Assembly (NCBI GenBank): GCA_030620515.1
Contig: JAUXEM010000008.1
Coordinates: 1 to 44,632, forward strand
DNA length: 44,632 nt
Direction: 5' to 3'
DNA from: Salinivirgaceae bacterium
Lineage (GTDB): Bacteria; Bacteroidota; Bacteroidia; Bacteroidales; SZUA-534
Part shown: piece by piece, positions 5,102 through 25,761 of the stretch
Layout: every line of letters begins with the position of its first letter
Numbering within the stretch: position 1 is the first letter of the stretch
Program-made: the position numbers and the translations under genes
Notes under the pieces: model-generated
What the model saw: the letters and a program-made list of their open reading frames with translations, nothing else
Database searches by the model: none
Told to the model about the DNA's origin: nothing

Positions 5102-6154
5102 ATGAATCAATCCGAATCACCATTACGCCAGATAAAAACCTCACGAGTAATTTATCCAACATTAATTGGCTTGGGGGTAATTGCGTACCTAATGTTTAAG
5201 GAATTTGACCCTAAAGCATTTAATGCTGTTCAATTTACTATACATTCGGTCTTTTGGCTTTTTGTTGCAGCATTAATGATGTTATTTCGTGATTTGGGAT
5301 ATGTATGGAGAATAAGGACACTTACTGGAAACCGGCTGAGCTTTATGCAGTCGGTGCGAGTAATCTTCTTATGGGAATTTACTTCAGCTATTACACCTTC
5401 AGCCATTGGTGGTACAAGTGTAGCTATTCTATATGTAAATAAAGAAGGTATTAGCCTTGGTAAAAGTTCGGCGGTTGTGATGACAACTTCTTTTCTCGAT
5501 GAAATTTATTTTGTTGTAATGTTTCCTTTGCTACTTATTGTCATAAATACCCAAGAATTATTTTATATAGGAGGTGGTTTTACTTTTGCAAACCCATTTT
5601 TTGCAGCTACTGTAATTGGTTATGGATTAAAAATGCTGTGGGTTATAGTAATAAGCTATGGTTTGTTTAAAAACCCTCGTGGCTTAAAATGGTTACTGTT
5701 ATTAATTTTTAAGCTGCCCTTTTTACGGCGTTGGCGTTATGGTGCAAGTAAGGCTGGAACCGATATTATTGCAAGCTCTAAAGAATTAAAAAAGCAGAAT
5801 TATAAATTTTGGCTTAAAGCTTTAGGAGCAACCTTCTTTTCCTGGACTGCTCGGTATTGGATTGTTAATGCACTTTTTTTGGCGTTTTTCACAGTAAACG
5901 ACCATTTCTTACTATTTGCTCGGCAATTAGTTATGTGGATAATGATGCTTGTAAGTCCAACACCAGGTGGAAGCGGTTTTTCAGAGTATGTATTTACAGA
6001 GTACCTAACTGACTTTCTGCCTTTTCCGGGAATAGCAATTTTAATGGCTTTATTGTGGCGAATATTTACCTATTATCCTTATTTATTTATAGGTGTATTT
6101 TTGTTTCCAAGATGGATTAAACAGAAATTTAGTAATCCAAATAACCAAGCATAG
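5102..6154 (+). CDS. UPF0104 / LPG-synthase-TM family membrane protein
   Basis: Polytopic inner-membrane protein of 350 residues with about seven or eight hydrophobic segments. It has family hallmarks of the flippase-like domain found in lysylphosphatidylglycerol synthases (PF03706): a first conserved block WEFTSAITPSAIGGTSVA, then SSAVVMTTSFLDEIYF, and the signature VSPTPGGSGFSEYVF near residues 290-305. No cytosolic synthase domain is attached, so its substrate is unknown; related proteins are linked to lipid or isoprenoid-lipid translocation. It precedes dxs on the same strand, but dxs has its own promoter. The gene starts 46 bp after a MITE. Confidence 0.85.
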   Translation: MNQSESPLRQIKTSRVIYPTLIGLGVIAYLMFKEFDPKAFNAVQFTIHSVFWLFVAALMMLFRDLGYVWRIRTLTGNRLSFMQSVRVIFLWEFTSAITPSAIGGTSVAILYVNKEGISLGKSSAVVMTTSFLDEIYFVVMFPLLLIVINTQELFYIGGGFTFANPFFAATVIGYGLKMLWVIVISYGLFKNPRGLKWLLLLIFKLPFLRRWRYGASKAGTDIIASSKELKKQNYKFWLKALGATFFSWTARYWIVNALFLAFFTVNDHFLLFARQLVMWIMMLVSPTPGGSGFSEYVFTEYLTDFLPFPGIAILMALLWRIFTYYPYLFIGVFLFPRWIKQKFSNPNNQA

Positions 6155-8390: not shown

Positions 8391-10772
8391 CTACTTATTA
8401 GCTTCAATTGCTTCCTTTAATCGTGTATTTATTTCCTTTTCTTTAGTTCTATCAATAGTAATTAATAGAATTTTAGGTTGAATTCTATCTTGCTCAATAA
8501 CCATGTATTCTTCAGCAAGTATTTGTTCTTTATTGCGATGTTTAATAATTTGATTGCGTTTACCTTTACCATTTTTAATTAAACTCTCCCAAAAATCATT
8601 AAATTTCTCACGCAACTTTTCATCTTGCGCAATAAACGCATCGTAATATTTACCTTGAATAGTATCGAGTGTAACTCCATGAACCATTAATAATGAAGGA
8701 CTCATATCCAAAACTCTTCCATTAATATCTAATTCGGCTATCATCATGGATTTCTTCAGGGTTTTTATGTATGAGGATAAATCCGATTCCCTTTTTCCAG
8801 CTTCTTCTTGTGTAGCCTGCATTTCTTCTAAATTTTGACGCATCTCTTCTTCATGCTGAGCTAATTCGTCAGCCTGATCTCTCGACTGTTCAAGTAACTT
8901 AGCTGTGCTTAAATTGGTTTTTACACTAGATATAACCGAGGCAATATTTTCACTAAGCTTCTCAATAAATTCTAACTGATGCTCTAAAAATGAATCATAG
9001 GATAATATCTCCAATACTCCATAAGTAATTTCGTTAATTGTAAGAGGTGAGATTACAAGGTTAGTTGGACGTTCTTCATTCTGCATTCCGGGTGAAATTT
9101 CCACATACTCTTGAGGAATGTTTTGTAAATAAATTATCTTATTCTCATCCACAGCCCTACCCAAAAGCTCTTGTCCTCTGGTTACTGATTTGGTAAGCAT
9201 CACAGGCTTTCCGTATGCTATTGCAGCTTTTAAAACAAATAGATCACTATTTTGATTATCATAATCAGTTTCTTCTCCAATAAAAACAGCACCTTGAGCA
9301 ACGTCTAGATAAGCTATTAATTCATTAATCACATTTTCAGAAAATTTGGTCATATCATCATTATCTCTACGGATAACTTCACCAAACTTTGCTAAACCAT
9401 TGGTTACCCAATTTCTATTTGCATCCTCTTTCTTCTTTTTTTCTTCCTCATCATTTGCCTTTACTAAGCTTGCCTGCATATCCAATAAAGAATTACCAAG
9501 TTCATCCTTAGCACTTAACAATTCATATTCAGCCTCTAAGTTTCCTTTCCCTATTTCAGTAGCAAAATCAGATGCCGAATTCAAGCCATCATATAATTCA
9601 TTAATAGTATCTGCTAAGTCCCTTATTTCATCATTTACAGTACAAGTAACTTTACCTTTAGCGTCAATATTCCCTTTTGCCAATTCTTTAAGAGCATTTG
9701 TTATTCTTATTATTGGTCGTGAAATTGATCTGGCAATAAGTGCAATTACAATTGTTAAAAACAATAAACCTAATAATCCTATTACTAATGTAATTCGAAA
9801 GCTTTTATTTGCTTTCTGAAAAATTGTGTCGGTGGGGATAGAAACACAACACGTCCATGGTGTTTTTATGTTCCCTACAAAAAGAGGTTCAAAAGCAAAC
9901 AAGCATTCTTCACCTAAGAGAGAATTTACGTCGTAGAATTCAAACGACTCCCCGTCTGCAATTCTTTCTAGAATATTATGTTTTTGAACCATAACCGAGT
10001 CCAACACATTAATAGATTTATTGATTTGATTAGTATCAGGACATGAAATGAATACTCCTTCATTCGAGAATATATATATCTGTCCGTCACCCATTGGCTT
10101 AAATTCTTTAAACTTTTCTTGAAAAATCGACAATGGCGCGTCAATACCAACTACACCATAAAATTTACCCTCATTTATAATTGGTGCTATAACATTTGTT
10201 TGTAAAATCTCATCTGCTTTGGAATCAGTATAGGAATAATAATATGGTTCTAACAGTAAATCGCATCTACAGTCCTTTGCTTTAGTAAAATAGTCTTGAG
10301 CAAACAATTCTGTTGATGAATTCTTTTCTAAAATTATTTCCCCACCATCTTTATAATAACCAGGTGAAAAGCTGCCAATATAAGTATTGCCAGGTAATCC
10401 AATCTGTGTAGAATCTAATGAATCAATTGTATTTGGTTCCCATATTGTCCATACCGATAAAAAACTATGGTTTTGCTCAAGAGACTCGTGCATAATACTC
10501 ATGAAATACGTCCTTCTTTTATTCTCAGGAATGTGTTTAAAGTTTGAGAATAAACTATTTATGGTTGCTAAAGATTCTACGTATTCGTTCAAAGTACGTT
10601 TTGCAATACTGGCATACTTAAAAGTTTCTTTATGAGTGTTTGCTGTTGCATTCTCCGATGAAATATTATATAGTTTATAGCTTATATATCCAAAAGATCC
10701 AGTGTATATTAAGGCTATTACACCAAGAATATACAAAAGCATTTTACCATTTATGCGTAGTCTTAATTTCAT
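8391..10772 (-). CDS. Membrane receptor dCache-HAMP-GAF-PAS without kinase
   Basis: Signal-transduction protein of 793 residues. Order: transmembrane helix about 9-29; large extracytoplasmic dCache-like domain about 33-320 with SVWTIWEPNTID and PGYYKDGGE typical of Cache sensors; second helix about 325-347; HAMP about 348-400; GAF about 457-614; coiled coil with the Bacteroidota signature EEEMRQNLEEMQATQEEA; PAS about 665-785. It ends 12 residues after the PAS domain, with no histidine kinase, GGDEF, phosphatase or methyl-accepting domain. Output must go through a partner protein or through the coiled coil. Paralogue of the gene immediately upstream, 85 bp away, and probably cotranscribed. 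Confidence 0.85.
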   Translation of the reverse strand: MKLRLRINGKMLLYILGVIALIYTGSFGYISYKLYNISSENATANTHKETFKYASIAKRTLNEYVESLATINSLFSNFKHIPENKRRTYFMSIMHESLEQNHSFLSVWTIWEPNTIDSLDSTQIGLPGNTYIGSFSPGYYKDGGEIILEKNSSTELFAQDYFTKAKDCRCDLLLEPYYYSYTDSKADEILQTNVIAPIINEGKFYGVVGIDAPLSIFQEKFKEFKPMGDGQIYIFSNEGVFISCPDTNQINKSINVLDSVMVQKHNILERIADGESFEFYDVNSLLGEECLFAFEPLFVGNIKTPWTCCVSIPTDTIFQKANKSFRITLVIGLLGLLFLTIVIALIARSISRPIIRITNALKELAKGNIDAKGKVTCTVNDEIRDLADTINELYDGLNSASDFATEIGKGNLEAEYELLSAKDELGNSLLDMQASLVKANDEEEKKKKEDANRNWVTNGLAKFGEVIRRDNDDMTKFSENVINELIAYLDVAQGAVFIGEETDYDNQNSDLFVLKAAIAYGKPVMLTKSVTRGQELLGRAVDENKIIYLQNIPQEYVEISPGMQNEERPTNLVISPLTINEITYGVLEILSYDSFLEHQLEFIEKLSENIASVISSVKTNLSTAKLLEQSRDQADELAQHEEEMRQNLEEMQATQEEAGKRESDLSSYIKTLKKSMMIAELDINGRVLDMSPSLLMVHGVTLDTIQGKYYDAFIAQDEKLREKFNDFWESLIKNGKGKRNQIIKHRNKEQILAEEYMVIEQDRIQPKILLITIDRTKEKEINTRLKEAIEANK

Positions 10773-10857: not shown

Positions 10858-13611
10858 CTAAACTTCCAGTAGTAATCCAAGTTCTTTAGCAGCTACCGCC
10901 CAATGTTTCTTAATTTTATTTAAAATAATAGACACTTTACTTAAGTTTTTATTGTCAATTAACAATCTCTCAATGTTTCTAAATTCCTCATAGATAGCCT
11001 TAAGCCCTATATAACTCATTTTAGTTTTAAGACTATTTATTCTTGATTTTAGTCGTTTATAATCTCTTGAGTTATTAATATCTTCCAGTTCTAATAATTG
11101 AGGTGGAAGGGTTTCGTAATAAAGTTTTAATATATTATAAATTTTTTGGGCATCCTTCTTATATAACATTTTCAAATATGTTAAATCGATTACTTCTAAT
11201 TTAATAGAAAAATCTACTTCATTTACTGTTTCAAGCAGCAAATCTTTTTCCTCATTAATTTGAGAAATCCTTCCTTCTGCAATTCTTTTTATTTCACTTT
11301 CGGTTTTTCTCTGTTCAGTTATATCAATACCTACGCACAGTATCCTTTGAACAATGCCATGCTGATTTTTTATGGGTAAATAGCTTTCTTGTATCCAAAA
11401 ATCTCTTTTTCCTGATTTATAGTATTCAACAGATTCTGATACAATTCCATTTTTCAAATCTTCCCATAATTGTATGTGTTTTTTCTGTTCCTCGTCGTCC
11501 ATAAACAGGTCAGATTTGTGTTTCTTACCAATAAGCTGAGCTTTTGGTAGTTTTAGAAGACTAAGGTAATTATTGTTTATTTCTATAAGTTTTCCATTAT
11601 AATCATATTCAGAAACCAGTAAAATTGCTTTGAAAGTTCCAATTAAACTGCTTAATTTCATTTCTCTTTTTGTAGCCTCTTCTTGTGTAGCTTGCATTTC
11701 CTCCATATTCTGTCGCATTTCCTCTTCTTGTTGCTCCAGTTCTTCTGCTTGTTTTTGCGATCTGTCAAGTAACTGCGCTGTGCGAACATTTACTTTAACC
11801 GTTGCAATTGTTGAAGCTATAGTTTCAGCTAATTTATCTACAAACTCTATTTGGTATTGATGCATCTCTTTTAGAGATTCTAACTCTAATACTCCAATCA
11901 TTTTCAGATTACTAATTAGCGGAACTATTAGAATTGAAGAGGGAATAGCCTGCCCTAGTCCTGAGGTGATCTTTGCATAATATTTAGGCACTTCATTTAT
12001 GAAAATTGTATCTTTCTCAAGAATACATCTACCTATTTCACCTTCGCCAGGTTTAATATTTTTTTTATTAAATTTTTCTTTTGAAAAACCTATGTGTGAA
12101 ATTAGTTCATATATATCACTATCATCGCGAGACTTTAAATAAATACCCCCCATATGAGCCCCTAAATAAATAGTAATTGTTTCTATAATACTATAGGTAA
12201 GATTTTCTAAATTTTGATTATCAACACGAAGAATCTTATTGAAAATATTCATACCCTGAGAAGCCCAATTCATATTTTCTTCCTCAACAATTCTTTGCTT
12301 CTCCTCTTCGCGAGCACTAGCTAAACTATTTCTCATTTCAAGAATTGCTCGTCCTAATATATCCTCCTTACTTAACTGGTTAAATTCATATGAATAATTT
12401 CCATTACCAATATTTTCAGCGAAGTTTGTCACTTGATTTAATCCATCAATAACAGTGTTTGTGGAATCTGCCATATCTTTAGTTTCATCGGCAGTATTTA
12501 TAACTAATTTTTTAACATTATGAACATCGCCACCTGCCAATTTTTTTACCAACTCAGTAGTTTTTTGTAATGGTGAGATTAAACCAATAGCATTAAAAAA
12601 TATAACTATTATAATAATTACTAAACCTAAAATTCCTGCATTAACAACAACCTTTAACATGCTATCTATCTGAGACTCAATAGTTATCAATGGGGCAGAC
12701 ACAACTACACACCATGGCGTTGCGGTATTTGCTATTTTAAAAGATGAAATAGCAAAATTCAGACTATCTATTCCCGATTTACTTTTTAATGTAAAGCTCG
12801 AATTTTCTCCTGATTGTATTCTATCTAAAATACTAAACGTACGAGCCAAAAGAGTATCTGTTTCAATAATATTGCTTCCTATTGTATTTTTGTTTGGATG
12901 ATAAATTATATCTCCATTAAAGGAGAAAAACATAATATCAAAGGCATTTGTACTCGATAAAGAATCTAATAACTGGTTATACTTGGTTAAGTTTAGCTCT
13001 GCCCCGACAATACCTGCAAACTCGTCATTAACAAGTATAGGCATCATTAGGCTAGTTTTAAAAATTTTGTCTACAGATTTTCCCGTATAGGAATGCCAAA
13101 CTGGATTTTCAATAGCCTCTTCAGGTAAAAGTTTTATAAAAGCATAATTATTCTCAAAATCATCCCCATCTAAATCTAAGGAATCAATAGTATGCTCAAG
13201 GTGTCCTGATTTCCAAATCTGATAGTTAGTAATTCTTCCGTATGGTAAGTCCCAATTATTATCGACAAAACGCAGTTCCCAAGAATCCCAGATGCCAACA
13301 AAATCTGTATTATTGCGTACGAGCTCAGCAGTAGTATTATTGAATATGTCTCTTTTACTATACCAGTCTAAAGTAGTATTGGTTTGCATTAATTGGGCTA
13401 TGGTACGTATTTTATCAAAATCTTTATTTAAATTAGTTTTAATTATTGATGCTAATTTAGCTGCCTCGTTACTATTTGTTTCAAAAGCCTCACTATAAGC
13501 AACTTTTTTAAAGTTCTTACTTATAATATTTGAAGAGATATAAAAAATTAATACTGAAATACTTAAAATAAGTACTAGCATTCTTATTAATAATCTGAAC
13601 CTAAATTTCAT
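10858..13611 (-). CDS. Membrane receptor dCache-HAMP-GAF-PAS with degenerate Hpt domain
   Basis: Paralogue of the downstream gene. The frame opens at 13659, but the ATG at 13611 (MKFRFRLLIRMLVL) aligns with the paralogue's start and puts the first helix at the N-terminus, giving 917 residues. In the longer numbering: dCache about 50-330, helix 333-358, HAMP to about 415, GAF about 475-630, coiled coil EEEMRQNMEEMQATQEEA, PAS about 672-790, then an Hpt-like bundle about 820-925. The bundle opens with IDLTYLKMLYKKDAQKI as in Hpt domains, but the phosphorylatable His of the HxLKG motif is Asn (INSLKTKM, residue 875). It therefore should not accept phosphate. No kinase domain is present. Confidence 0.83.
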   Translation of the reverse strand: MKFRFRLLIRMLVLILSISVLIFYISSNIISKNFKKVAYSEAFETNSNEAAKLASIIKTNLNKDFDKIRTIAQLMQTNTTLDWYSKRDIFNNTTAELVRNNTDFVGIWDSWELRFVDNNWDLPYGRITNYQIWKSGHLEHTIDSLDLDGDDFENNYAFIKLLPEEAIENPVWHSYTGKSVDKIFKTSLMMPILVNDEFAGIVGAELNLTKYNQLLDSLSSTNAFDIMFFSFNGDIIYHPNKNTIGSNIIETDTLLARTFSILDRIQSGENSSFTLKSKSGIDSLNFAISSFKIANTATPWCVVVSAPLITIESQIDSMLKVVVNAGILGLVIIIIVIFFNAIGLISPLQKTTELVKKLAGGDVHNVKKLVINTADETKDMADSTNTVIDGLNQVTNFAENIGNGNYSYEFNQLSKEDILGRAILEMRNSLASAREEEKQRIVEEENMNWASQGMNIFNKILRVDNQNLENLTYSIIETITIYLGAHMGGIYLKSRDDSDIYELISHIGFSKEKFNKKNIKPGEGEIGRCILEKDTIFINEVPKYYAKITSGLGQAIPSSILIVPLISNLKMIGVLELESLKEMHQYQIEFVDKLAETIASTIATVKVNVRTAQLLDRSQKQAEELEQQEEEMRQNMEEMQATQEEATKREMKLSSLIGTFKAILLVSEYDYNGKLIEINNNYLSLLKLPKAQLIGKKHKSDLFMDDEEQKKHIQLWEDLKNGIVSESVEYYKSGKRDFWIQESYLPIKNQHGIVQRILCVGIDITEQRKTESEIKRIAEGRISQINEEKDLLLETVNEVDFSIKLEVIDLTYLKMLYKKDAQKIYNILKLYYETLPPQLLELEDINNSRDYKRLKSRINSLKTKMSYIGLKAIYEEFRNIERLLIDNKNLSKVSIILNKIKKHWAVAAKELGLLLEV

Positions 13612-13880
13612 TCGTGAAGGCTTTTCTGTTATACTTAATTGTCCCCTTAAAAACTGCATATAAAACTAAACAATAATGAATAAGCCACATGACTATCCAC
13701 TTATGCTAATTTATGAATAAATATGAGGATTTTTTTTTTTAAAACCTCAATTATTATCTATAAATTGAGACGAACCTATTGAATATTATAAAATAGCACC
13801 CTAACATTCCAATATTTAGAAAGTATGGTTGCTACTGTATTAATATTTTAGTAAACATTTTTTAGTATGTTACAATAGAT

Positions 13881-14076: not shown

Positions 14077-15429
14077 TTAGTTAATGCGTTGTTGCATGAA
14101 AAGATTCATTTTATTTTTTTGCTGCTTACTAAAAAATCTTTCAAACTGAAATGTAGTATTCTTTGGTATAAAATTTGACTTAACCACAATACCCCCACAC
14201 AGTTGTATTGCTTGGGCTAATATAGGATCGTTAAGGTTGCCAAATGGCAGAGCATTCATCATTTCGTCTTTAATAAAATAATTAGGACTTAATCCATCTT
14301 TAAATTCTGTATAGCCATTTGCATTTGAGTACTTTAATACAATAGGCATCATTGCCCAATTATGTCTTGGGGGAGTTTCCATATCAGGAATTACCCACGA
14401 ACCAGTATATTTACCAAAAGTATTTTCTCCTATTGATACAACATTCATGTATGGCATTAAGCCTATCATTACTAATTCACTAGCAGATGCAGTGCCTCTA
14501 GCGCATAGGAAATATATATTGCTTAAATCTAGATTTACATCATTCTCAATGAATCTTATCTCTCTTTCTACTATAGAAGATATAGCATTAAGTTTATTGT
14601 TGTAATTAATATTAGTAAGTATCGACTTATTGTTTATTACGCTGGTAGGGGCAATTGCAGACGACAACCATTGAGCAGAGTTCATATAACCACCGCCATT
14701 ATAGCGAAAATCAACAATTAATTCATCAATTCCTGATGTCTTAAAACGCTTAAGAGATTCACCAACATGTTGAATAAATGCTGCATCATCAATAAATTCA
14801 GTTATAACACAATAACCAATTTTTGTATTATTTGATTCAAAAATAGTATCAAAAACAACTGGATTTACTTGTATTAACTCGGCATTCATATACAATTTTT
14901 CGTCTGTAATTTGCAAGCCATTACTTGTGTTTTCAGCAAGAGTTAAAGTTTGTGTGTTAGAATGAAACAAATCAGCATAGTTGTTAGTATTTAATTGCTT
15001 ATCATTAATTTCCATTACAATATCGCCTCTTTGCAATCCAGCTTTGGCAGCAGGTGAGTTAGGATATACATACTCAATTACCATAAAAACATTGTTTGAT
15101 CCAGTAAACTGCCCAAAGGTGGGTGAGTAACCCATGGTAACTGGTTCACCTGTTAAGCTTGCCATTAAACCAGCATAGTCATCGGTTATGTACGACCATT
15201 TATCTTCCTGGTCGTATGTTAAACTATAAAAGTAATCTTCTGGATACATAGAACCCGGCACATTATTATCCTCAATATTGTTACACCAAAAATAAAAATC
15301 GTTCATATTAGTGTATATCCAATTATTCTCTACTGTATACAAACTATCCTCATGTTTATCGCAACTTGGTAATACAAATGATAAACTAATAAATAGAATA
15401 ATGTTAATTATATAGAACTTTTTTTCCAT
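14077..15429 (-). CDS. S41-family (C-terminal processing) peptidase lipoprotein with PDZ domain
   Basis: Secreted serine peptidase of 450 residues. Lipoprotein signal ends LSFVLPSC, so it is predicted to be membrane-anchored. A PDZ domain lies about 110-165 (EYVYPNSPAAKAGLQRGDIV). The S41 catalytic domain has the Ser in TASASELVMIG (Ser315) and the Lys in GENTFGKYTG (Lys340), exactly 25 residues apart as in CtpA/D1P peptidases, plus DFRYNGGGY. It is predicted active. It starts 33 bp after the stop of the second KASIII-SDR gene and is the last gene of that operon by spacing, though it has no evident biosynthetic role there. Confidence 0.88.
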   Translation of the reverse strand: MEKKFYIINIILFISLSFVLPSCDKHEDSLYTVENNWIYTNMNDFYFWCNNIEDNNVPGSMYPEDYFYSLTYDQEDKWSYITDDYAGLMASLTGEPVTMGYSPTFGQFTGSNNVFMVIEYVYPNSPAAKAGLQRGDIVMEINDKQLNTNNYADLFHSNTQTLTLAENTSNGLQITDEKLYMNAELIQVNPVVFDTIFESNNTKIGYCVITEFIDDAAFIQHVGESLKRFKTSGIDELIVDFRYNGGGYMNSAQWLSSAIAPTSVINNKSILTNINYNNKLNAISSIVEREIRFIENDVNLDLSNIYFLCARGTASASELVMIGLMPYMNVVSIGENTFGKYTGSWVIPDMETPPRHNWAMMPIVLKYSNANGYTEFKDGLSPNYFIKDEMMNALPFGNLNDPILAQAIQLCGGIVVKSNFIPKNTTFQFERFFSKQQKNKMNLFMQQRIN

Positions 15430-15462: not shown

Positions 15463-17316
15463 TTAGATATCTACCTCTAGCTGATACCCATCACGTCTAA
15501 CTACCAAGGCGTTTTCATAATTATGATGCGTTCCTTCTACCTTAGGTATATATAATGAATTTACAATTCGAAATGCCGTTTCATTAGCTAGCAATGGTTT
15601 TTCCTGTCCTATTTCTACGGTAAACTGATATAAAGCTTTTGGATCAATGTTCCGAAGCATTCCTTCGCTTAATACTCCAGGAATATACCAAACTAAATAA
15701 TTCCCAGCTTTTAGTATTTCACCACTCATTGAAGCCATTGTACCATGCAAGCTCCTTTTTGCCGAAATAAAATTGTGTATTTCTGGAACATTAACATCTT
15801 CAGCGGCAGCACCCACAAAAAGAGCAGTCCCTTTTAAGTAAGGTATAATACTTTTGAATATTTTTAATGGCGCATAATGATTAACATTCAACACCTTACC
15901 CTTTTTTCTGCTCATTAAAACACCTGCTGCATTTACAAAGAAATTAATTTCTCTATCCTTACAAACCAAAATTTCAATAATCCTTTCTATTTGCTCTTTT
16001 ACATTAAAATTAGCCTGATAGCTTTCCGCTACTACATTATTATTTTTGGCAAATAATTCTAATTCTGCAATTTTCTGATTATGCTTATTATAATGTAAAA
16101 TTACATTTGCTCCTCGTACTATAAGTTCCTTTGCTATTTCAGAACCTAAAGTCCCACTTGCTCCCAGAACCAGAGCAGTTTTTTCCTTTAAATCTCCTTT
16201 AAAAAGGCGGGTTAATTTTTCCAATGAATATTTTTTTTCAGGTACCACATAAGAAAATGCTCCGTAGTTTCCCCCTACTCCGGCCATTGGGCTAAGTATT
16301 TTCATTCCTGGCTTTAGTTTTCCAGCTTTGTTTAGCATGGAGAAAGCTATTGGAACAGTTGCTCCTGAAATATTTCCATATTCATGCTGTGCTTCTAAGT
16401 AAACTTGTTGTGGTGTTAAACCAAGCAGTTTTGCTGCCGGATATAATATAGCATTCCCAGTTTGGTGCGGCACACATAAATCTACATCTTCTGCTTTCCA
16501 ATCCGATTTATTTAATATTTCAACAGAAGCTTCTGGAATATTTTTTATTGCTCGGTCTTTAATAAGTGAATCATCCATATATAGATTCCAATTTTTATCG
16601 ACTCCAACAAAATCAACCATTTGCATATCCTGATAATTATTCACGTTTAAAACACCCTGTGGAGTATCTGTTTCAGTGCGACTTAATACCACAAAAGCAG
16701 CGCCATCGGCAAAGGTTACAAAAGGAACAAATTTAACCCTTTGCGTTAAAAAGGACGACATTGTTTCGGCATGCCCAACAACTACATGTTTTGCTTCTGA
16801 ATTAGCTTTTAAATACTCAATAGCCCTTTCCAAATTAATATTAAAACCAGCACAACCTGATGTTAATGTATAAGCAGGTTTAAAATTGTTAAATGCAACA
16901 AAATGTGATTTAATAGCTGCTGCAATACCTGGGGCTTTTTGATGTGGTGAAACCGTACTTACAAACCATGCATCAATCTGCTTAGGCGTTATGCCGGCAT
17001 CTTTCATTGCCATATCTGCTGCTTTTACCCCAAGTTCAAGAGAGGTTTCAGCATAATTTAATTTTTTTCTCGTGGGAGGAAAAGGCGTAACATGCCAACG
17101 TGTAATAAAGCCCATTTTCTCACGCACAAAATAATCAAAGGGTCCAATATCATGATGCTTCACTTTATAGGCTTGGTAATTCTTGCTTTTTGCCATTCTT
17201 TCTTCATCAAAGCCACGTAAGAACCCTTTACGTAGTGCATCGGCAATAAACTCATTGCTTATTTGAAATTTACCTGCCGAATGACCCATCCCCGAGAAAA
17301 TATAGCTAGTTATCAT
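15463..17316 (-). CDS. KASIII-SDR fusion with inactive SDR half
   Basis: Two-domain protein of 617 residues. Residues 1-360 are a ketoacyl synthase III (FabH/thiolase fold) with Cys155 (TSGCAGFN), His284 (VPHQTGNA) and Asn315 (YGNISGAT) all present. Residues 375-617 are a short-chain dehydrogenase/reductase with the NAD(P) loop GASGTLG. The SDR catalytic residues are altered: the Ser 13 before the Tyr is Ala503, and YxxxK is FISAK (Phe516, Lys520). The reductase half is therefore predicted inactive while the condensing half looks competent. Same length and residue numbering as the paralogue at 18558-20411. It starts 8 bp after the ALDH-like gene and is probably translationally coupled. Confidence 0.88.
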   Translation of the reverse strand: MITSYIFSGMGHSAGKFQISNEFIADALRKGFLRGFDEERMAKSKNYQAYKVKHHDIGPFDYFVREKMGFITRWHVTPFPPTRKKLNYAETSLELGVKAADMAMKDAGITPKQIDAWFVSTVSPHQKAPGIAAAIKSHFVAFNNFKPAYTLTSGCAGFNINLERAIEYLKANSEAKHVVVGHAETMSSFLTQRVKFVPFVTFADGAAFVVLSRTETDTPQGVLNVNNYQDMQMVDFVGVDKNWNLYMDDSLIKDRAIKNIPEASVEILNKSDWKAEDVDLCVPHQTGNAILYPAAKLLGLTPQQVYLEAQHEYGNISGATVPIAFSMLNKAGKLKPGMKILSPMAGVGGNYGAFSYVVPEKKYSLEKLTRLFKGDLKEKTALVLGASGTLGSEIAKELIVRGANVILHYNKHNQKIAELELFAKNNNVVAESYQANFNVKEQIERIIEILVCKDREINFFVNAAGVLMSRKKGKVLNVNHYAPLKIFKSIIPYLKGTALFVGAAAEDVNVPEIHNFISAKRSLHGTMASMSGEILKAGNYLVWYIPGVLSEGMLRNIDPKALYQFTVEIGQEKPLLANETAFRIVNSLYIPKVEGTHHNYENALVVRRDGYQLEVDI

Positions 17317-17324
17317 ATGCTGTA

Positions 17325-18545
17325 TTATTTTGTAAACGTTTCTAACAAACTAAAACTCCCTGATTTGGCTTCCCAATTTGTTTCTTTGCTTAATGTAAAA
17401 CCTGAATTTTTGTATCCACCCCAAGTTCCAATGTAACCATTTTCAGTAGTAATAATATCAAGAATAGATTTATTCTTTAACACCATAATATGTTCTTTTA
17501 ATATTTCAGGTGTAAGTTGGTCTATTTCTTCTTCAGCCCCCCATAAGGTGGTGTAAATACCATAGTTAGTATTATTAATTTCCTTAGCAATTTCATTAAA
17601 ATCAAGAAAAACAATGGGTAATACTGGAGCAAAATGATAATCTTTCCAAATATTAGAATCCGTATTATGCAACCATATTAAACTAGGAGAAATTAGCGTG
17701 CTTTTTTCATTCTTATTTACACTATAATTCGTGATAATAGAATCTTTTTTTTCCGCTTCGCTAACTCTTTGTTCCAGTTGCTCTATTAAATATGGTGGAA
17801 TAATTGGAGTTACATAATTACTAGGATCCTCTCCACAAGTAATTTTCATTAACTTATCGTAAAATAAAGCTGCCACTTTAACTTTATCAATTCTGTTATC
17901 AATTATACAACGATTAATAGAAACTGCTACTTGACCAGAAAGAATGAAAGCCGATTCCAGAATTTTATCAATAGCTTGTTCTATATTAATATCTGATAGT
18001 ATTACTGCAGTGTTATTTCCGGGTCCATAGTAGGTTAAAGATTTAATCTTTTTAAACTCATCAATATATTTATACACCCACTTATCTCCAAAAACAACAC
18101 AATGTTTAATTGTTGTCATGGATAAAGTTTTGCTCATAAAATTCTTTGTGCCATAGCAAAAACTAAGGTTTGGTAATAAGTCACTATTCGAAATTAGTTT
18201 CTCAAGACACAAGCCATATTTTTTTAATATACTCGGAAAACCTATTAAAATATGTGCATTATTACCACCCAATTTAATAGCTGGTGCTAATACCATTCCA
18301 AATAAGGAAAACGAAGGGTCTCCATAACAAGAGTAAGCTGAGACACCTCCTGATAATTCTGAAGTGTGAGAAAGATTAATGCCTACATATGCTCTCAGCG
18401 ATGCTATTCCTCTTTCAATATTCTCAACATTAGTTTGCAAAGAGGTAAGTACATCTTCGGTATTGGCTTTTGCTATATCAAGCTTATTCTTCTCTAATAA
18501 ATCTGCTAAATTATTTAGCAAGTTGTTGTTCTCACTTGTTGTCAT
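17325..18545 (-). CDS. Aldehyde dehydrogenase-like protein lacking the catalytic cysteine
   Basis: Protein of 406 residues with the ALDH fold signature in its second half: TYYGPGNNTAVILSD (the usual ELGG region), SGQVAVSINR (usually GQxC), FAPVLPIVFLDFNEIAKEIN and GGYKNSG near the C-terminus. The nucleophile position is Ala207, and the general-base Glu of ELGG is replaced by Tyr at about 173, so ordinary aldehyde oxidation or acyl-CoA reduction is not expected. It is shorter than most ALDHs (about 480-500). It sits between the two KASIII-SDR genes with 12- and 8-bp gaps, which suggests a structural or acyl-binding partner of those enzymes. LuxC-type acyl reductase is an alternative, but it too needs a Cys. 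Confidence 0.75.
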   Translation of the reverse strand: MTTSENNNLLNNLADLLEKNKLDIAKANTEDVLTSLQTNVENIERGIASLRAYVGINLSHTSELSGGVSAYSCYGDPSFSLFGMVLAPAIKLGGNNAHILIGFPSILKKYGLCLEKLISNSDLLPNLSFCYGTKNFMSKTLSMTTIKHCVVFGDKWVYKYIDEFKKIKSLTYYGPGNNTAVILSDINIEQAIDKILESAFILSGQVAVSINRCIIDNRIDKVKVAALFYDKLMKITCGEDPSNYVTPIIPPYLIEQLEQRVSEAEKKDSIITNYSVNKNEKSTLISPSLIWLHNTDSNIWKDYHFAPVLPIVFLDFNEIAKEINNTNYGIYTTLWGAEEEIDQLTPEILKEHIMVLKNKSILDIITTENGYIGTWGGYKNSGFTLSKETNWEAKSGSFSLLETFTK

Positions 18546-18557
18546 TTTCTATAATGC

Positions 18558-20411
18558 TTAATATTTTGTATATCCATCTTTTCGTACGGTTAATACTCCA
18601 TGATATTCGGTACGAACATTAGCTACTTTAGGAATATACATTGATTTTACTATACGACCAGCGATATCTTTAAGAGGTATTAAATGCTTCTGTCCAACGG
18701 CCAACATCGATCCTTGAATTTGAGCGTCGTTTAACACTTCGGTCATTCCACCATTAATAACTCCAGGTATGTAATAAACACATTTTATGTTTGGATATTG
18801 AAGGCGAGCATAGCCAGATGCAAATCCAAATAAACCGCGTTTTGAAGCAACATAAGAAGATGAACCACTAAACTGTGCATCTTGTGCAATTGATCCTGTA
18901 AACAAAACAGTTTCAGTTAAAATATCGGTTAATCCCTCGGTTAATCGTTGCTGATTCACATGGTTTATATTTTCAACCCACTCCATTTCTTCATCGCTTA
19001 CTTCCGAAGCTTTAGAAAGGCTACCCGTAACAGCAACAGTATGAATTAAAAAATTTAACTCCTTTGTTTCGTTCTTAACTTGCTGAATGAGAGTGTCTAT
19101 TTCAGCTTCTTCGGCAAAATTAGCTTTTAAGCAGATATGCTTTAATTGCTGATTTGGAAGTTCAGAAAGTATTTTTTGAGCTTTATCGGCATTGGAATTG
19201 TAATGCAATATTACCCTACAACCTTTATCGGCTAATTGACGTGATATTTCACCTCCTAAACCGCCAGTGCAACCTGTTACTAGAGCAATTTTATTTTCCA
19301 GATCATTGTTTCGAGGTGTAAACCCACTTTTTTCAGGAACAATGTAGGAGAATCCTCCAAGCTCACCACCAAGCCCAGTAACTGAAGTAACAATTTTCAT
19401 TCCTGCCAATAATCGCTTATTCATTTTTAAATAAGCCAAGGAGGCTGGTATCGATGCTCCAGACAAGTTGCCAAATTCATACTGTATTTCTTGAAACACC
19501 TTCTCAGGTGGCATATCTAATTTTTTACCTGCACTATGCACAATAGCGTTTCCTGTTTGATGCGGTATGAATAAGTCTATTGTATCTTTTGTCCAATTTT
19601 GTTTTTCAAGCAATTCATTTGCTGACCTAACAATATTTGGTACAGCTCTCCACTTAACTCTTCGAGGATCCATAATTAGATTCCCCTTACGATCAGCTCC
19701 CAAAAAGTCAATCATTGCCATATCTTCATAATTTACCACATCGAGTATTCCTTCTTTTTTATCAGACTGCACCCTACTAACAATCACTGCGGCAGCCCCA
19801 TCTCCAAAAGTAGTAAACGGCACAAAATCATTTTCGTTGAGCAATAAATTACTCATTACCTCAGTATGTGCAACCACAATATGATTAGCCTCTGGGTGAC
19901 TTTTAAAATAGCTTACTGCTCTCTCAATATTGATATTAAAACCAACGCATGCCGATGTAGTTGTCATGGTTTGGGTACGGTTATCCATTTGGGTAAAAAA
20001 GCATTTTGCTGTTTCGGCAATACCTGGAGCCATTTCATGAGGAGTAGCTGTTCCTATAATCCAAGCAGCAACATCCTCTGGGTGAACTCCCGAATCATCA
20101 AAAGCCTTTTGAATTGCCCCAACCAACAAATCTAAGCTAGATTCAGCAGTTTCGTAAAGCTCGGCTCTTGGAGGAAATGGAACAACATGATAGCGGGTTT
20201 TAAACCCCATCATGTGCTCTGCCATATAATCGAATGGCTCAACAGTAGGAAGCTTCTCTTTTACCGCTTTAAATTTATCCGAATGTGTAATTCTTTCCTT
20301 ATCTAAACCAGTAAAATAGTTATTATCAATTAGTTTATCAATATCGCTATTGCTTACTTTATGTTTACCAGTAACAAATCCATATCCGCTAAATATTAAA
20401 TTCTCGTACAT
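18558..20411 (-). CDS. KASIII-SDR fusion with intact active sites
   Basis: 617 residues. N-terminal ketoacyl synthase III with Cys155 (TTSACVGFN), His284 (IPHQTGNA) and Asn315 (FGNLSGAS), the FabH-type triad. C-terminal short-chain dehydrogenase with the cofactor loop TGCTGGLGGE (about 379-388) and an intact triad Ser507, Tyr520, Lys524 (SYVASK). A single chain could therefore condense two acyl units and reduce the 3-keto product. KASIII domains can use acyl-CoA or acyl-ACP; nothing here decides which. The first 85 residues, including GFKTRYHVVPFPPR, are shared with the paralogue and differ from housekeeping FabH at 40407-41408. It lies 68 bp after the crotonase gene. Confidence 0.9.
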   Translation of the reverse strand: MYENLIFSGYGFVTGKHKVSNSDIDKLIDNNYFTGLDKERITHSDKFKAVKEKLPTVEPFDYMAEHMMGFKTRYHVVPFPPRAELYETAESSLDLLVGAIQKAFDDSGVHPEDVAAWIIGTATPHEMAPGIAETAKCFFTQMDNRTQTMTTTSACVGFNINIERAVSYFKSHPEANHIVVAHTEVMSNLLLNENDFVPFTTFGDGAAAVIVSRVQSDKKEGILDVVNYEDMAMIDFLGADRKGNLIMDPRRVKWRAVPNIVRSANELLEKQNWTKDTIDLFIPHQTGNAIVHSAGKKLDMPPEKVFQEIQYEFGNLSGASIPASLAYLKMNKRLLAGMKIVTSVTGLGGELGGFSYIVPEKSGFTPRNNDLENKIALVTGCTGGLGGEISRQLADKGCRVILHYNSNADKAQKILSELPNQQLKHICLKANFAEEAEIDTLIQQVKNETKELNFLIHTVAVTGSLSKASEVSDEEMEWVENINHVNQQRLTEGLTDILTETVLFTGSIAQDAQFSGSSSYVASKRGLFGFASGYARLQYPNIKCVYYIPGVINGGMTEVLNDAQIQGSMLAVGQKHLIPLKDIAGRIVKSMYIPKVANVRTEYHGVLTVRKDGYTKY

Positions 20412-20479: not shown

Positions 20480-21235
20480 TTAGTTTTTCTCAAATTTACT
20501 TTCAATCTCTTTGTGTCCTTTTTTCGATAGTAGTGAAGAAAACCACATGGCCTCCTTTTTATATATCTCACGCAAGTTGGTTTTACTATTCTCACGCAAC
20601 ATCTTTTTTATGGCAACTAAGGCCTCTTTTGATGCTTTTCCGAAATATTCAGCTTGTTCACTTAATTCTTTTTTAAACGCATTAAGCAAAACTACATTCT
20701 GAATAAGACCAGCATTTAATGCCTTGTTCAAAGGAATGTCGTCTCCTGTGAGTAAATAAAAAGAGGCATCGGCATTTCCTAAGTGAATAGGTAGCTGAAC
20801 GGTCCCACCAGCGCCTGGTATCATACCATATCGCACTTCAGGTAAGGCAAGGCGAGTATTGTCAGCACATATACAAAAGTCGCAATGCATTGCTAATTCC
20901 AAACCGCCACCAAAACAGATACCTGAAATAAAAGCAACTACAGGTACTTCTATTTCATTCAATAACTGAAAAGTAGTTTGTACAAAAGCGCTTCTTTTTT
21001 CAGCCTCCTTTTGGTCAAGAGCTTTCATTTCAATTAAATCGCCCCCTGCACTAAATGCTTTATCGTTACCAAGTAAAAATAATGCTTTAATGTTTCTTAT
21101 ATTATTAGCTTCGGTAAACGCATGGTTTAGCTCAATTACCATATCAATACATAACGCATTATGTTTTTGTGGTCGGTTTAGGGTTACATATAAAATGTTA
21201 TTTTCAATTTTCGTTAGAATATATATATAGTTCAT
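20480..21235 (-). CDS. Enoyl-CoA hydratase/isomerase (crotonase) family protein
   Basis: 251-residue crotonase-fold enzyme. The oxyanion-hole segments are GNDKAFSAGGDL and SGICFGGGLELAMHCD. Both catalytic Glu residues of classical hydratases are present (GGLELAMHCD and LPEVRYGMIPGAGGT), so hydration/dehydration of enoyl thioesters is the likely reaction. First gene of the operon that continues into the two KASIII-SDR fusions; dehydration of the 3-hydroxy product would be a logical next step after SDR reduction. A role in ordinary beta-oxidation cannot be excluded, but no thiolase or acyl-CoA dehydrogenase is nearby. Confidence 0.88.
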   Translation of the reverse strand: MNYIYILTKIENNILYVTLNRPQKHNALCIDMVIELNHAFTEANNIRNIKALFLLGNDKAFSAGGDLIEMKALDQKEAEKRSAFVQTTFQLLNEIEVPVVAFISGICFGGGLELAMHCDFCICADNTRLALPEVRYGMIPGAGGTVQLPIHLGNADASFYLLTGDDIPLNKALNAGLIQNVVLLNAFKKELSEQAEYFGKASKEALVAIKKMLRENSKTNLREIYKKEAMWFSSLLSKKGHKEIESKFEKN

Positions 21236-21447: not shown

Positions 21448-22182
21448 CTAAACAGCTAAACAATCACCAATCTTTTCTTTTACTATATCAAGCAATTGCT
21501 CGCTATCAACACTATTCCTATCAATAGGCTCTAATGCAGTATATTTTAATCGTATTCCAATATTAAGAGGAAACTTCCCCCATTTATGTAATTTGTAATT
21601 ACCATTTACTACAAAAGGAACAATTAATGCTGTGGGCGCTGCTTTCAGCAAAGTTTTAAAACCTGCCTCTTGGAACTTACGAAGCTCACCTGTCGTACTC
21701 CGTGAACCTTCAGGAAAAATACATGCCGACCAGTATTTGCTTTCCATATTCTTTCCAAGTTTGAGAATCTCTTTAATTGATTGGGACCCATTCTTTCTAT
21801 CAATAAGAACAGAACCTCCATTTTTAAGATTGTAGGATATTCCAGATAGTTTTTTACTCAGCTCTTTTTTAGATATATATTTTGGATGATGCTTTCTAAA
21901 AGCCCATCCAATTGGAGCTATATCGTACATGCTTTGATGGTTTGAAACTATTATGAATGGCGTATCTTTTGGTAATTTGCTAATTCCACGAAAACTTGGG
22001 CGACATAGCAATAAATACACTGTTTGCACTAGTAAAAAGTTAAGCACATCAATGACATTTTTATGGGCTTGATAACCAAAAACTTTTAAAGCAATTGCCT
22101 GAATAGGGTGAGAAATTATTACAATTGCAATGAAAGCGAAATAGTGAATGGCAGATAAAAAAACGGCTAATATTTTTTTCAT
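21448..22182 (-). CDS. plsC: 1-acyl-sn-glycerol-3-phosphate acyltransferase family protein
   Basis: Membrane acyltransferase that esterifies lysophosphatidate or a similar lipid. Hydrophobic N-terminal segments, then the catalytic HX4D motif in NHQSMYDI, the acceptor-binding FPEGSRSTTGE, and VPFVVNGNYKLHKWGKFPLNIG. The open frame begins at 22263, but the ATG at 22182 (MKKILAVFLSAIHYF) starts at the first membrane segment as in other PlsC proteins, giving 244 residues. It is the first gene of this minus-strand run, 212 bp before the crotonase gene, and may install the product of the downstream KASIII-SDR operon into a lipid; that link is inference. Confidence 0.87.
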   Translation of the reverse strand: MKKILAVFLSAIHYFAFIAIVIISHPIQAIALKVFGYQAHKNVIDVLNFLLVQTVYLLLCRPSFRGISKLPKDTPFIIVSNHQSMYDIAPIGWAFRKHHPKYISKKELSKKLSGISYNLKNGGSVLIDRKNGSQSIKEILKLGKNMESKYWSACIFPEGSRSTTGELRKFQEAGFKTLLKAAPTALIVPFVVNGNYKLHKWGKFPLNIGIRLKYTALEPIDRNSVDSEQLLDIVKEKIGDCLAV

Positions 22183-22549
22183 TATGACATAGAGTTTAAA
22201 ACTTTGGGCGAATATACTAAAAGCATATATTTTTTCGAAACCTGTAAGGAAAGAGAATTTCAAAAATGCATCTATTTTTAAAATTTAAGCAATAAAATTA
22301 CCATATTACAAAAAAAAAGAAGAGATATATTTGCAATTCAACCCACATAATCCAGTAGAATATCAGTAAGTACAATTTAATTTTATGTTAATGTGATTTA
22401 TGAAGTAACTTTAGCAATTGATTGATTTTCAATATATTATTTTAATAGCAGAGGCATTTCATAAACCAATAGTTCGTTAATATTTTATATCTAGACTATA
22501 ATAAGAGTGTTGCATAAAACTTGCAAATTTGCCTAATATACAGAATATC

Positions 22550-23302: not shown

Positions 23303-24193
23303 CTACTCAATTATATGTGTTCTAATTTGTTTAGTTAAAGTTCTAATCTGTTCAATTTGTTCATCGCTTAAATTAATAAGGGCTCCCTCTGCAACAAAAA
23401 TTTTTCTTTTAGATGTATCAATAACCAAACTCTCAGAAGGGAATTTTATTTCCATTTCTTCAAACAAATTATTCATCTTTTTAATAAGCAGAAAGTACTC
23501 CGATACACTTATTTTATTTTGCGACATCTGCATAAGTTTAAACAAACTATTGGCTGAGAATTTCTGCGAAGCAACCCTACTAACTATTCTTTCATCGGGT
23601 CGGTCATACATATTTATAGCTATATATAATGTTTCAATCCAACCTCCAAATAGAATTAAACTAGCGGTATGTTCTCGTCCCGAATCTTTTAAATAAACCT
23701 CTGCTGTATAATACGATTCACGAGCTATAGAAATTAAAGTATCTAAATTGTTAACGTGGTTTTCAGCATCGTTAATAGTAAAATCCACAAAATCACGAGG
23801 AATCCCAAGCTGATCAGAAAGTACCTGAATAGCTATTAAATATGAATTAGCCTGTTGCGATTGATTAAACAGCCACAAATAACTTATATCGGCACCATAC
23901 ACACCCAAATTTAAAGCTGCTTTAACACTTTCATTATAATTGGTAATATTATTTAATGGATTTAATAACGATGAGTTATAAAACGAAACATCCTTAGTAA
24001 GCAAATAAGATAAATCAACTGGTGAAAAAAGATTATAAAAGACAATGTCTTCCATTTTATAATCACTAGCATTAAATTCCACAACATTTGTTTCTATGCT
24101 CTCTTTACTATTATCTTGTTGTTCTTGTGTGTTGTTTGTGCAAGCAAACCCTACAATTAGAGAAACAAATATTAATCCGAATATTTTATTCAT
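23303..24193 (-). CDS. Uncharacterised lipoprotein, paralogue 1
   Basis: 296-residue protein I do not recognise. N-terminal lipoprotein signal MNKIFGLIFVSLIVGFAC, then an acidic linker and a mostly helical domain. It is clearly paralogous to the protein at 24859-25761: both contain the core NSSLLNPLNNI..YNES or its close variant, LGVYGADISYLW, a D-LGIP segment, a GGW-ET segment and a final E-ReL/IRT tail. Predicted to sit on a membrane surface facing the periplasm or outside. No enzyme motif is visible. The two copies flank a small gene on the other strand. Confidence 0.8.
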   Translation of the reverse strand: MNKIFGLIFVSLIVGFACTNNTQEQQDNSKESIETNVVEFNASDYKMEDIVFYNLFSPVDLSYLLTKDVSFYNSSLLNPLNNITNYNESVKAALNLGVYGADISYLWLFNQSQQANSYLIAIQVLSDQLGIPRDFVDFTINDAENHVNNLDTLISIARESYYTAEVYLKDSGREHTASLILFGGWIETLYIAINMYDRPDERIVSRVASQKFSANSLFKLMQMSQNKISVSEYFLLIKKMNNLFEEMEIKFPSESLVIDTSKRKIFVAEGALINLSDEQIEQIRTLTKQIRTHIIE

Positions 24194-24858: not shown

Positions 24859-25761
24859 CTAATTAATTATTAATTCACGAATCTCTGTTATCTGACTTTT
24901 TAATTGCTCAAACTCTTCTGGGCTAATCTCCAATTCTTTTGTTGAATTAAAAGTAATTGTCTTCCGTAAAGTATCAATTACTAATTGATCGGAAAAGTGA
25001 ATATTTTGTAGACGATCAAACTCTTCCAACAAATCATTAAGCTTATTGCCATAAACGGTTAATAATGCATTGTCTGGTTGTTTATATAATAAATTCAACA
25101 GGCTTGCTAACGAATATTTTTGACTAATAATTTTACATGCCATTCGGCTGTTTGGATGTGTATAAAGAAAAACTGCTGTATGCATTGTTTCAACCCAGCC
25201 TCCTAATAATACCAATACAGCTAAATCCTGCTGATCTCTTTCAATTAAATATTTATCGCAAGCGTAGTATGCTTGTCGAGCTATATGAATTAATGTGTCA
25301 ATATTATCGGTATACATTTCCGCTTTGTTTGCTGAGATATCAACATACTCTTCTGGTATTCCAAGGTCGTCAGCTAATTGTTTAATTGCTGTAAAATAAG
25401 AAAGAGCTTGCTGACCTTGCTTAAATACCCAAAGGTAGCTTAAGTCAGCCCCGTATACGCCAAGAGCGGTAGCCCTTTGAGTGCTTTCATTATATTTTGA
25501 GATATTATTTAGTGGATTTAGCAAAGTAGAATTGTAATAGGAATTCCGTTTATCAATTAGTACACCCAAATCAATAGGATACAACATATTATAGAATATA
25601 ACATCTTCCTCCACTTCGCCAGATACTTGTAGTATTAATTCAATGGAAGAATCCGTAGCTGCATCTATTTTATCTTGATCTAATTTATTACTGTTGTTTT
25701 TACTTGTACAACTTAACAACAGCAATCCGAATATTATTATTACATAGTTAGACTTGAACAT
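24859..25761 (-). CDS. Uncharacterised lipoprotein, paralogue 2
   Basis: 300 residues with lipoprotein signal MFKSNYVIIIFGLLLLSC and an extracytoplasmic helical domain. Same family as 23303-24193; conserved pieces include YNSTLLNPLNNISKYNES, ALGVYGADLSYLWVF, DDLGIPEEYVDIS, IARQAYYACDKYL and LLGGWVETMHTAV. The pair probably arose by tandem duplication, with the 61-residue gene and a palindromic repeat now between them. No known domain or catalytic motif is visible. Confidence 0.8.
   Translation of the reverse strand: MFKSNYVIIIFGLLLLSCTSKNNSNKLDQDKIDAATDSSIELILQVSGEVEEDVIFYNMLYPIDLGVLIDKRNSYYNSTLLNPLNNISKYNESTQRATALGVYGADLSYLWVFKQGQQALSYFTAIKQLADDLGIPEEYVDISANKAEMYTDNIDTLIHIARQAYYACDKYLIERDQQDLAVLVLLGGWVETMHTAVFLYTHPNSRMACKIISQKYSLASLLNLLYKQPDNALLTVYGNKLNDLLEEFDRLQNIHFSDQLVIDTLRKTITFNSTKELEISPEEFEQLKSQITEIRELIIN

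Follow-up and report, generated by a model that had tools for sequence, protein, structure and literature searches.

The window analysed here, 44,632 nucleotides of a Salinivirgaceae bacterium contig (JAUXEM010000008.1), carries two genes for KASIII-SDR fusions, A and B, which lie in one operon and are transcribed with A first and B second. Their features, all on the minus strand, are as follows.

18558-20411, minus strand: copy A, a KASIII-SDR fusion of 617 aa (ORF, Pfam, alignment, AlphaFold2 model).
15463-17316, minus strand: copy B, a KASIII-SDR fusion of 617 aa (ORF, Pfam, alignment, AlphaFold2 model).
16237-17316, minus strand: KASIII half of B, FabH fold, residues 1-360.
15463-16194, minus strand: SDR half of B, about residues 375-617, with the Rossmann fold kept and the active site degenerate.
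15808-15810, minus strand: Ala503 codon of B, equivalent to Ser507 in A (A/B alignment).
15769-15771, minus strand: Phe516 codon of B, equivalent to Tyr520 in A (A/B alignment).
15838-15897, minus strand: helix alphaE in the SDR half of B, residues 474-493 (model helix and conservation).
15709-15768, minus strand: helix alphaF in the SDR half of B, residues 517-536, motif HGxxASxSGE (model helix and conservation).

Both proteins share one layout, a FabH-like KASIII at about residues 1-360 followed by an SDR at about 370-617, and they align end to end with 239 identities in 626 columns (39%). Pfam recognises KASIII (PF08545, PF08541) and SDR (PF00106) in both above curated cut-offs; for B, the PF00106 match scores 55.7 bits against a cut-off of 26.6. 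No other copy of the fusion occurs in the window genome. The KASIII triad, Cys155/His284/Asn315, is the same in A and B in the alignment. The SDR site of A is complete, with a TGCTGGLG loop, Asn483, Ser507, Tyr520 and Lys524, and that of B reads Ala503, Phe516 and Lys520 in place of Ser-Tyr-Lys, while the fourth residue of the SDR tetrad is kept as Asn479. A first-pass annotation had given these SDR and KASIII residue numbers for the two 617-residue paralogues, and the ORFs and alignment bear out every one of them. It had also called the cofactor loop of B intact, which is true of the glycines; however, the Thr of the TGxxxGxG motif is Leu (LGASGTLG in B versus TGCTGGLG in A), a change common to 86% of degenerate B copies. 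Because the same A/F/K set occurs in five B orthologues at 67-74% identity, four of them full-length and one partial, sequencing error is excluded. The A/F/K motif of B, VGAAAEDxxVPEIHxFISAKR, is itself conserved across six genomes. The observation of paired fusions with a degenerate SDR in B and an intact KASIII in both therefore stands.

AlphaFold2 gave confident models of B (pLDDT 92.2, pTM 0.91) and A (pLDDT 91.8, pTM 0.92). The KASIII half of B superimposes on 2ebd_A in VIA-align with a Z score of 42.4 and an rmsd of 1.8 Å over 309 residues, and the modelled SDR half shows alternating strands and helices in Rossmann-type order from residue 380 to 609. The Foldseek and VIA-align lists were taken up by matches to the KASIII half and bear on that half, not on the SDR half. 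Among the matches listed in PDB sequence searches, each solved chain covers one half and none spans both.

A scan of 84,980 species yielded 45 homologous loci, all but two on records titled Bacteroidales, Bacteroidia, Bacteroidota, Bacteroidetes, Marinilabiliales or Salinivirgaceae. The two exceptions, L033 and L063, are contigs whose titles name Candidatus Delongbacteria and Rikenella microfusus; they bear genes of the Bacteroidales pair and are probably misbinned or misnamed MAG contigs. Across the order Bacteroidales, 15 of 393 genomes have the fusion, the window genome included. The window's own genome was the sole match at 1e-40 in a phylum sample of 395 genomes, and plasmid records held no fusion covering 80% of the query. 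The closest relatives of the window fusions come from Salinivirgaceae/Marinilabiliales MAGs. Judged from the sequences sampled, the A/B duplication is old and confined to Bacteroidales.

Copy number is nearly constant: 24 of the 29 genomes checked have exactly two copies, four have one and one has A plus two B fragments, and whole copies never exceed two per genome. The usual gene order is crotonase-A-(ALDH)-B; it is found repeatedly in different lineages, and the gaps between genes are often only a few bases long. A and B are not adjacent in G007, G003, G802, G816 and G812/G108, and still number at most two copies there. An apparent natural fusion of A to B in L047 (6303-9587, 1094 aa) proved to be an artefact, as its frame spans a 100-N scaffold gap.

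To follow the SDR residues, we used a tree built from KASIII columns only, so that the SDR trait itself had no part in it, and this tree separates A from B as two clades. Ser-Tyr-Lys is retained in 43/43 A sequences, and the 40 B sequences divide into eight intact ones, which are basal, and 32 degenerate ones. Among the degenerate sets, AFK belongs to the window's family, and TFK, TWN, SWN, NWK, NWR, NYL, HLV, HVA and HIA occur elsewhere; this variety does not agree with the earlier expectation that operons always pair an intact SDR with an Ala/Phe one. Two further B copies carry HLF, and the glycine motif is largely lost too in B of the L060/L062/G816 group. In every A or B homologue covering those sites, the KASIII Cys, His and Asn are present.

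On a careful tree, three changes are needed to account for the SDR loss. None of 200 bootstrap trees has a single loss, and the AU test of a single clade returns p 0.038, a value just under 0.05 for a dead set that was named from the data. These results disfavour a single origin, and SDR loss most likely recurred, two to three independent times and always in B. The first-pass annotation had held that Ser/Tyr-bearing orthologues of the same copy, or a random pattern of loss, would speak against a selected pseudoenzyme: Ser-Tyr-Lys copies of B do exist, as the eight basal ones, but the pattern of loss is non-random. Two simple rules for where B stays intact failed. B is not intact only where A is missing, since G802 (L039) has an intact B plus A on another contig, and unlinked B copies do not always stay intact, since those of G007 and G003 are unlinked yet A/F/K. 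The KASIII halves of A and B also differ at fixed positions (Ala154/Gly beside the catalytic Cys, Thr123/Ser and others, in 100% of copies compared). Because these differences hold even where both SDRs are intact, the ketosynthases appear to have specialised before the SDR loss.

The genes around the pair in the window are the following.

17325-18545, minus strand: ALDH-like protein between A and B (PF00171 and alignments).
20480-21235, minus strand: crotonase/enoyl-CoA hydratase upstream of A, with both catalytic Glu kept.
14077-15429, minus strand: S41 peptidase lipoprotein downstream of B (Pfam).
21448-22263, minus strand: 1-acylglycerol-3-phosphate acyltransferase-like (LPAAT-like) protein, upstream (Pfam); adjacent in G003 too.

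Only the crotonase and the ALDH-like gene recur as partners; the others considered (a Tricorn-like protease, HutI, S41) looked like local synteny. The S41 gene does lie beside or near B in three related genomes as well, which is probably local synteny. The crotonase adjoins A in most lineages and, wherever a copy lies next to A, has both catalytic Glu residues; one operon could therefore provide condensation, reduction and dehydration. In the rumen relative L050, a cyclophilin-type peptidyl-prolyl isomerase (5373-6134) replaces the crotonase just upstream of A. Six genomes have the ALDH-like gene placed between A and B, and in 6/6 its catalytic Cys is Ala (Ala207, within GQVA, in the window). 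Its catalytic Glu is kept in 3/6, exactly those with an intact B SDR, and lost in the three with a degenerate B SDR, including the window, where it is Tyr173. In L046 and L048, genes close to the pair encode a crotonase, an LpxL-like acyltransferase and a protein resembling FabK, whose match falls short of the curated cut-off. Together with the LPAAT-like gene upstream in the window, this gene context hints at acyl-chain building for a lipid. Elsewhere in the window, the minus-strand genes at 23303-24193 and 24859-25761 encode lipoprotein-like proteins (296 and 300 aa) that resemble each other and are evidently paralogues by eye; Pfam gives no match for the first. The neighbouring genes at 8391-10772 and 10858-13659 (minus strand) encode a further pair of similar proteins, which look like membrane sensors; the Pfam list of the second contains GAF, PAS and a weak dCache match, and no kinase domain.

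Constraint on the SDR half is uneven. Divergence of the SDR half relative to the KASIII half is 1.1-1.3 in A and 1.2 in intact B, and rises to 1.4-1.5 in AFK- and TWN-type B and 2.1 in HLV-type B. In pairwise comparisons of close rumen relatives, dN/dS is about 0.08 for the SDR half of B, 0.07 for that of A and 0.03-0.04 for the KASIII halves. By these measures, the SDR half of B is somewhat relaxed but clearly constrained, and the open frames of B are full-length in all lineages with complete sequence. We also compared conservation element by element, a post hoc comparison on few sequences. In the active-site loop, identity is 0.72 in A against 0.37 in degenerate B of the main group, and the corresponding values for the HLV group are 0.97 and 0.36. 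Of 15 SDR elements, just two, alphaE and alphaF, match or exceed A in identity in both groups of degenerate B. AlphaF is the most conserved SDR element of the degenerate main-group copies and stands above A there (0.61 vs 0.52), as it does in the HLV group (0.63 vs 0.50). In most SDRs, alphaE and alphaF form the Q-axis interface, the main dimer contact (PMC1326212). Their conservation supports, without proving, a dimer-interface role in B.

The first-pass annotation had proposed a selected pseudoenzyme, and the one-sided degeneration, the purifying selection and the sparing of alphaE/alphaF agree with it: that the SDR half of B is a selected structural pseudo-reductase is well supported, with the loss of chemistry itself read from its residues. 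Two other fates for this half are both improbable. It could still be an active reductase with a non-canonical mechanism or another substrate, as the E. coli FabG mutants S138A, Y151F and K155A retain activity (PMC7973133); because S138A and Y151F are the exact changes in question, A/F/K alone is no proof that the window's B is dead. This copy also keeps Lys520, Asn479 and a glycine-rich loop, and its A/F/K motif is itself conserved. However, substitutions such as TWN, NWK, HLV and HIA in other B copies, the largely lost glycine motif of one group, and an active-site loop that diverges fast while alphaE/alphaF are kept all argue against retained activity. Conversely, the half could be a decaying tail, retained because a fusion is not easily truncated, which would fit the faster divergence of the degenerate copies and the great differences in residue sets between lineages. 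This is no better a prospect, given uninterrupted frames, low dN/dS, an alphaF that in two groups exceeds the intact sister in conservation, and a fold predicted with high confidence.

How A and B work together is a more even contest. The reading that we prefer, to which we give slightly less than an even chance, is that of an ancient acyl-condensing system with two subunits encoded by the operon. An acyl primer would be condensed on each KASIII half, A and B alike; the 3-keto product would be reduced by the SDR half of A, and the resulting 3-hydroxy product dehydrated by the neighbouring crotonase. In most lineages, the SDR half of B would do no chemistry and be kept for its fold, its alphaE/alphaF face most likely packing on the SDR half of A in an A-B heteromer, with one working reductase serving two working ketosynthases. 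Duplication, one-sided loss, intact KASIII and crotonase residues, predicted fold, spared alphaE/alphaF and purifying selection are the sequence-based support for it. The heterodimer that it invokes is plausible, but what preserves alphaE/alphaF could instead be packing against the KASIII half, or a B-B homodimer. A and B might be two separate homodimers with different tasks acting in sequence, A giving a reduced 3-hydroxyacyl product and B performing another condensation whose keto group stays unreduced, its SDR fold stabilising the B homodimer. The KASIII differences that predate SDR loss favour such a division of labour, and the unlinked genes of several genomes favour it too and count against the heteromer. 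Near-constant 1:1 presence and frequent adjacency, on the other hand, fit subunits at least as well, and we consider separate homodimers possible but doubtful.

The family appears to hold a replicated natural record of a reductase domain turning into a structural partner, with two to three losses always in the same paralogue and with living intermediates in which B is intact (L039, L046, L048, L049 and G203). Together, replicated losses and intact intermediates make the active/inactive heteromer idea directly testable. The A/B pair also flags an uncharacterised acyl-building pathway in many uncultured Bacteroidales, rumen lineages included. It is tempting to go further and picture a lipid- or metabolite-making complex with two pseudoenzymes, the reductase half of B as an obligate structural or allosteric subunit for that of A plus a pseudo-ALDH in some lineages, widespread in uncultured Bacteroidales and with no dedicated family model found; we regard this fuller picture as rather unlikely.

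Our literature search of open-licence papers turned up no account of a fused KASIII-SDR protein. The two halves share their folds and catalytic residues with FabH and FabG of type II fatty acid synthesis, which are separate proteins. The human mitochondrial KAR is an HSD17B8/CBR4 heterotetramer in which one SDR subunit carries the ketoacyl reductase activity; unlike A and B, this eukaryotic heteromer is made of separate proteins with no KASIII fusion. Type II PKS ketosynthase and chain-length factor are active and inactive sister domains kept together, with the Cys lost in one partner. The first-pass annotation drew this analogy, which captures the shared active/inactive logic but is inexact, as A and B both keep the ketosynthase Cys and it is the reductase that is lost. 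Among KASIII pairs, PqsBC of Pseudomonas aeruginosa is a heterodimer in which PqsB is without all three KASIII catalytic residues (PMC4807248). Like A and B, it consists of adjacent diverged KASIII paralogues, and it keeps one partner as scaffold in a FabH-like pseudo-symmetric dimer; unlike them, it has no SDR half, whereas A and B each have a complete KASIII triad and it is the fused SDR that degenerates. The lipstatin synthase LstAB is likewise an adjacent KASIII-like pair, soluble only together and with a predicted FabH-like interface, but it has no described SDR fusion and its Cys-His-Asn triad is described for LstA only (PMC12141560). With catalytic residues present in both ketosynthases and the asymmetry located in the fused second domain, A and B are not members of the PqsBC, LstAB or ketosynthase/chain-length factor kinds.
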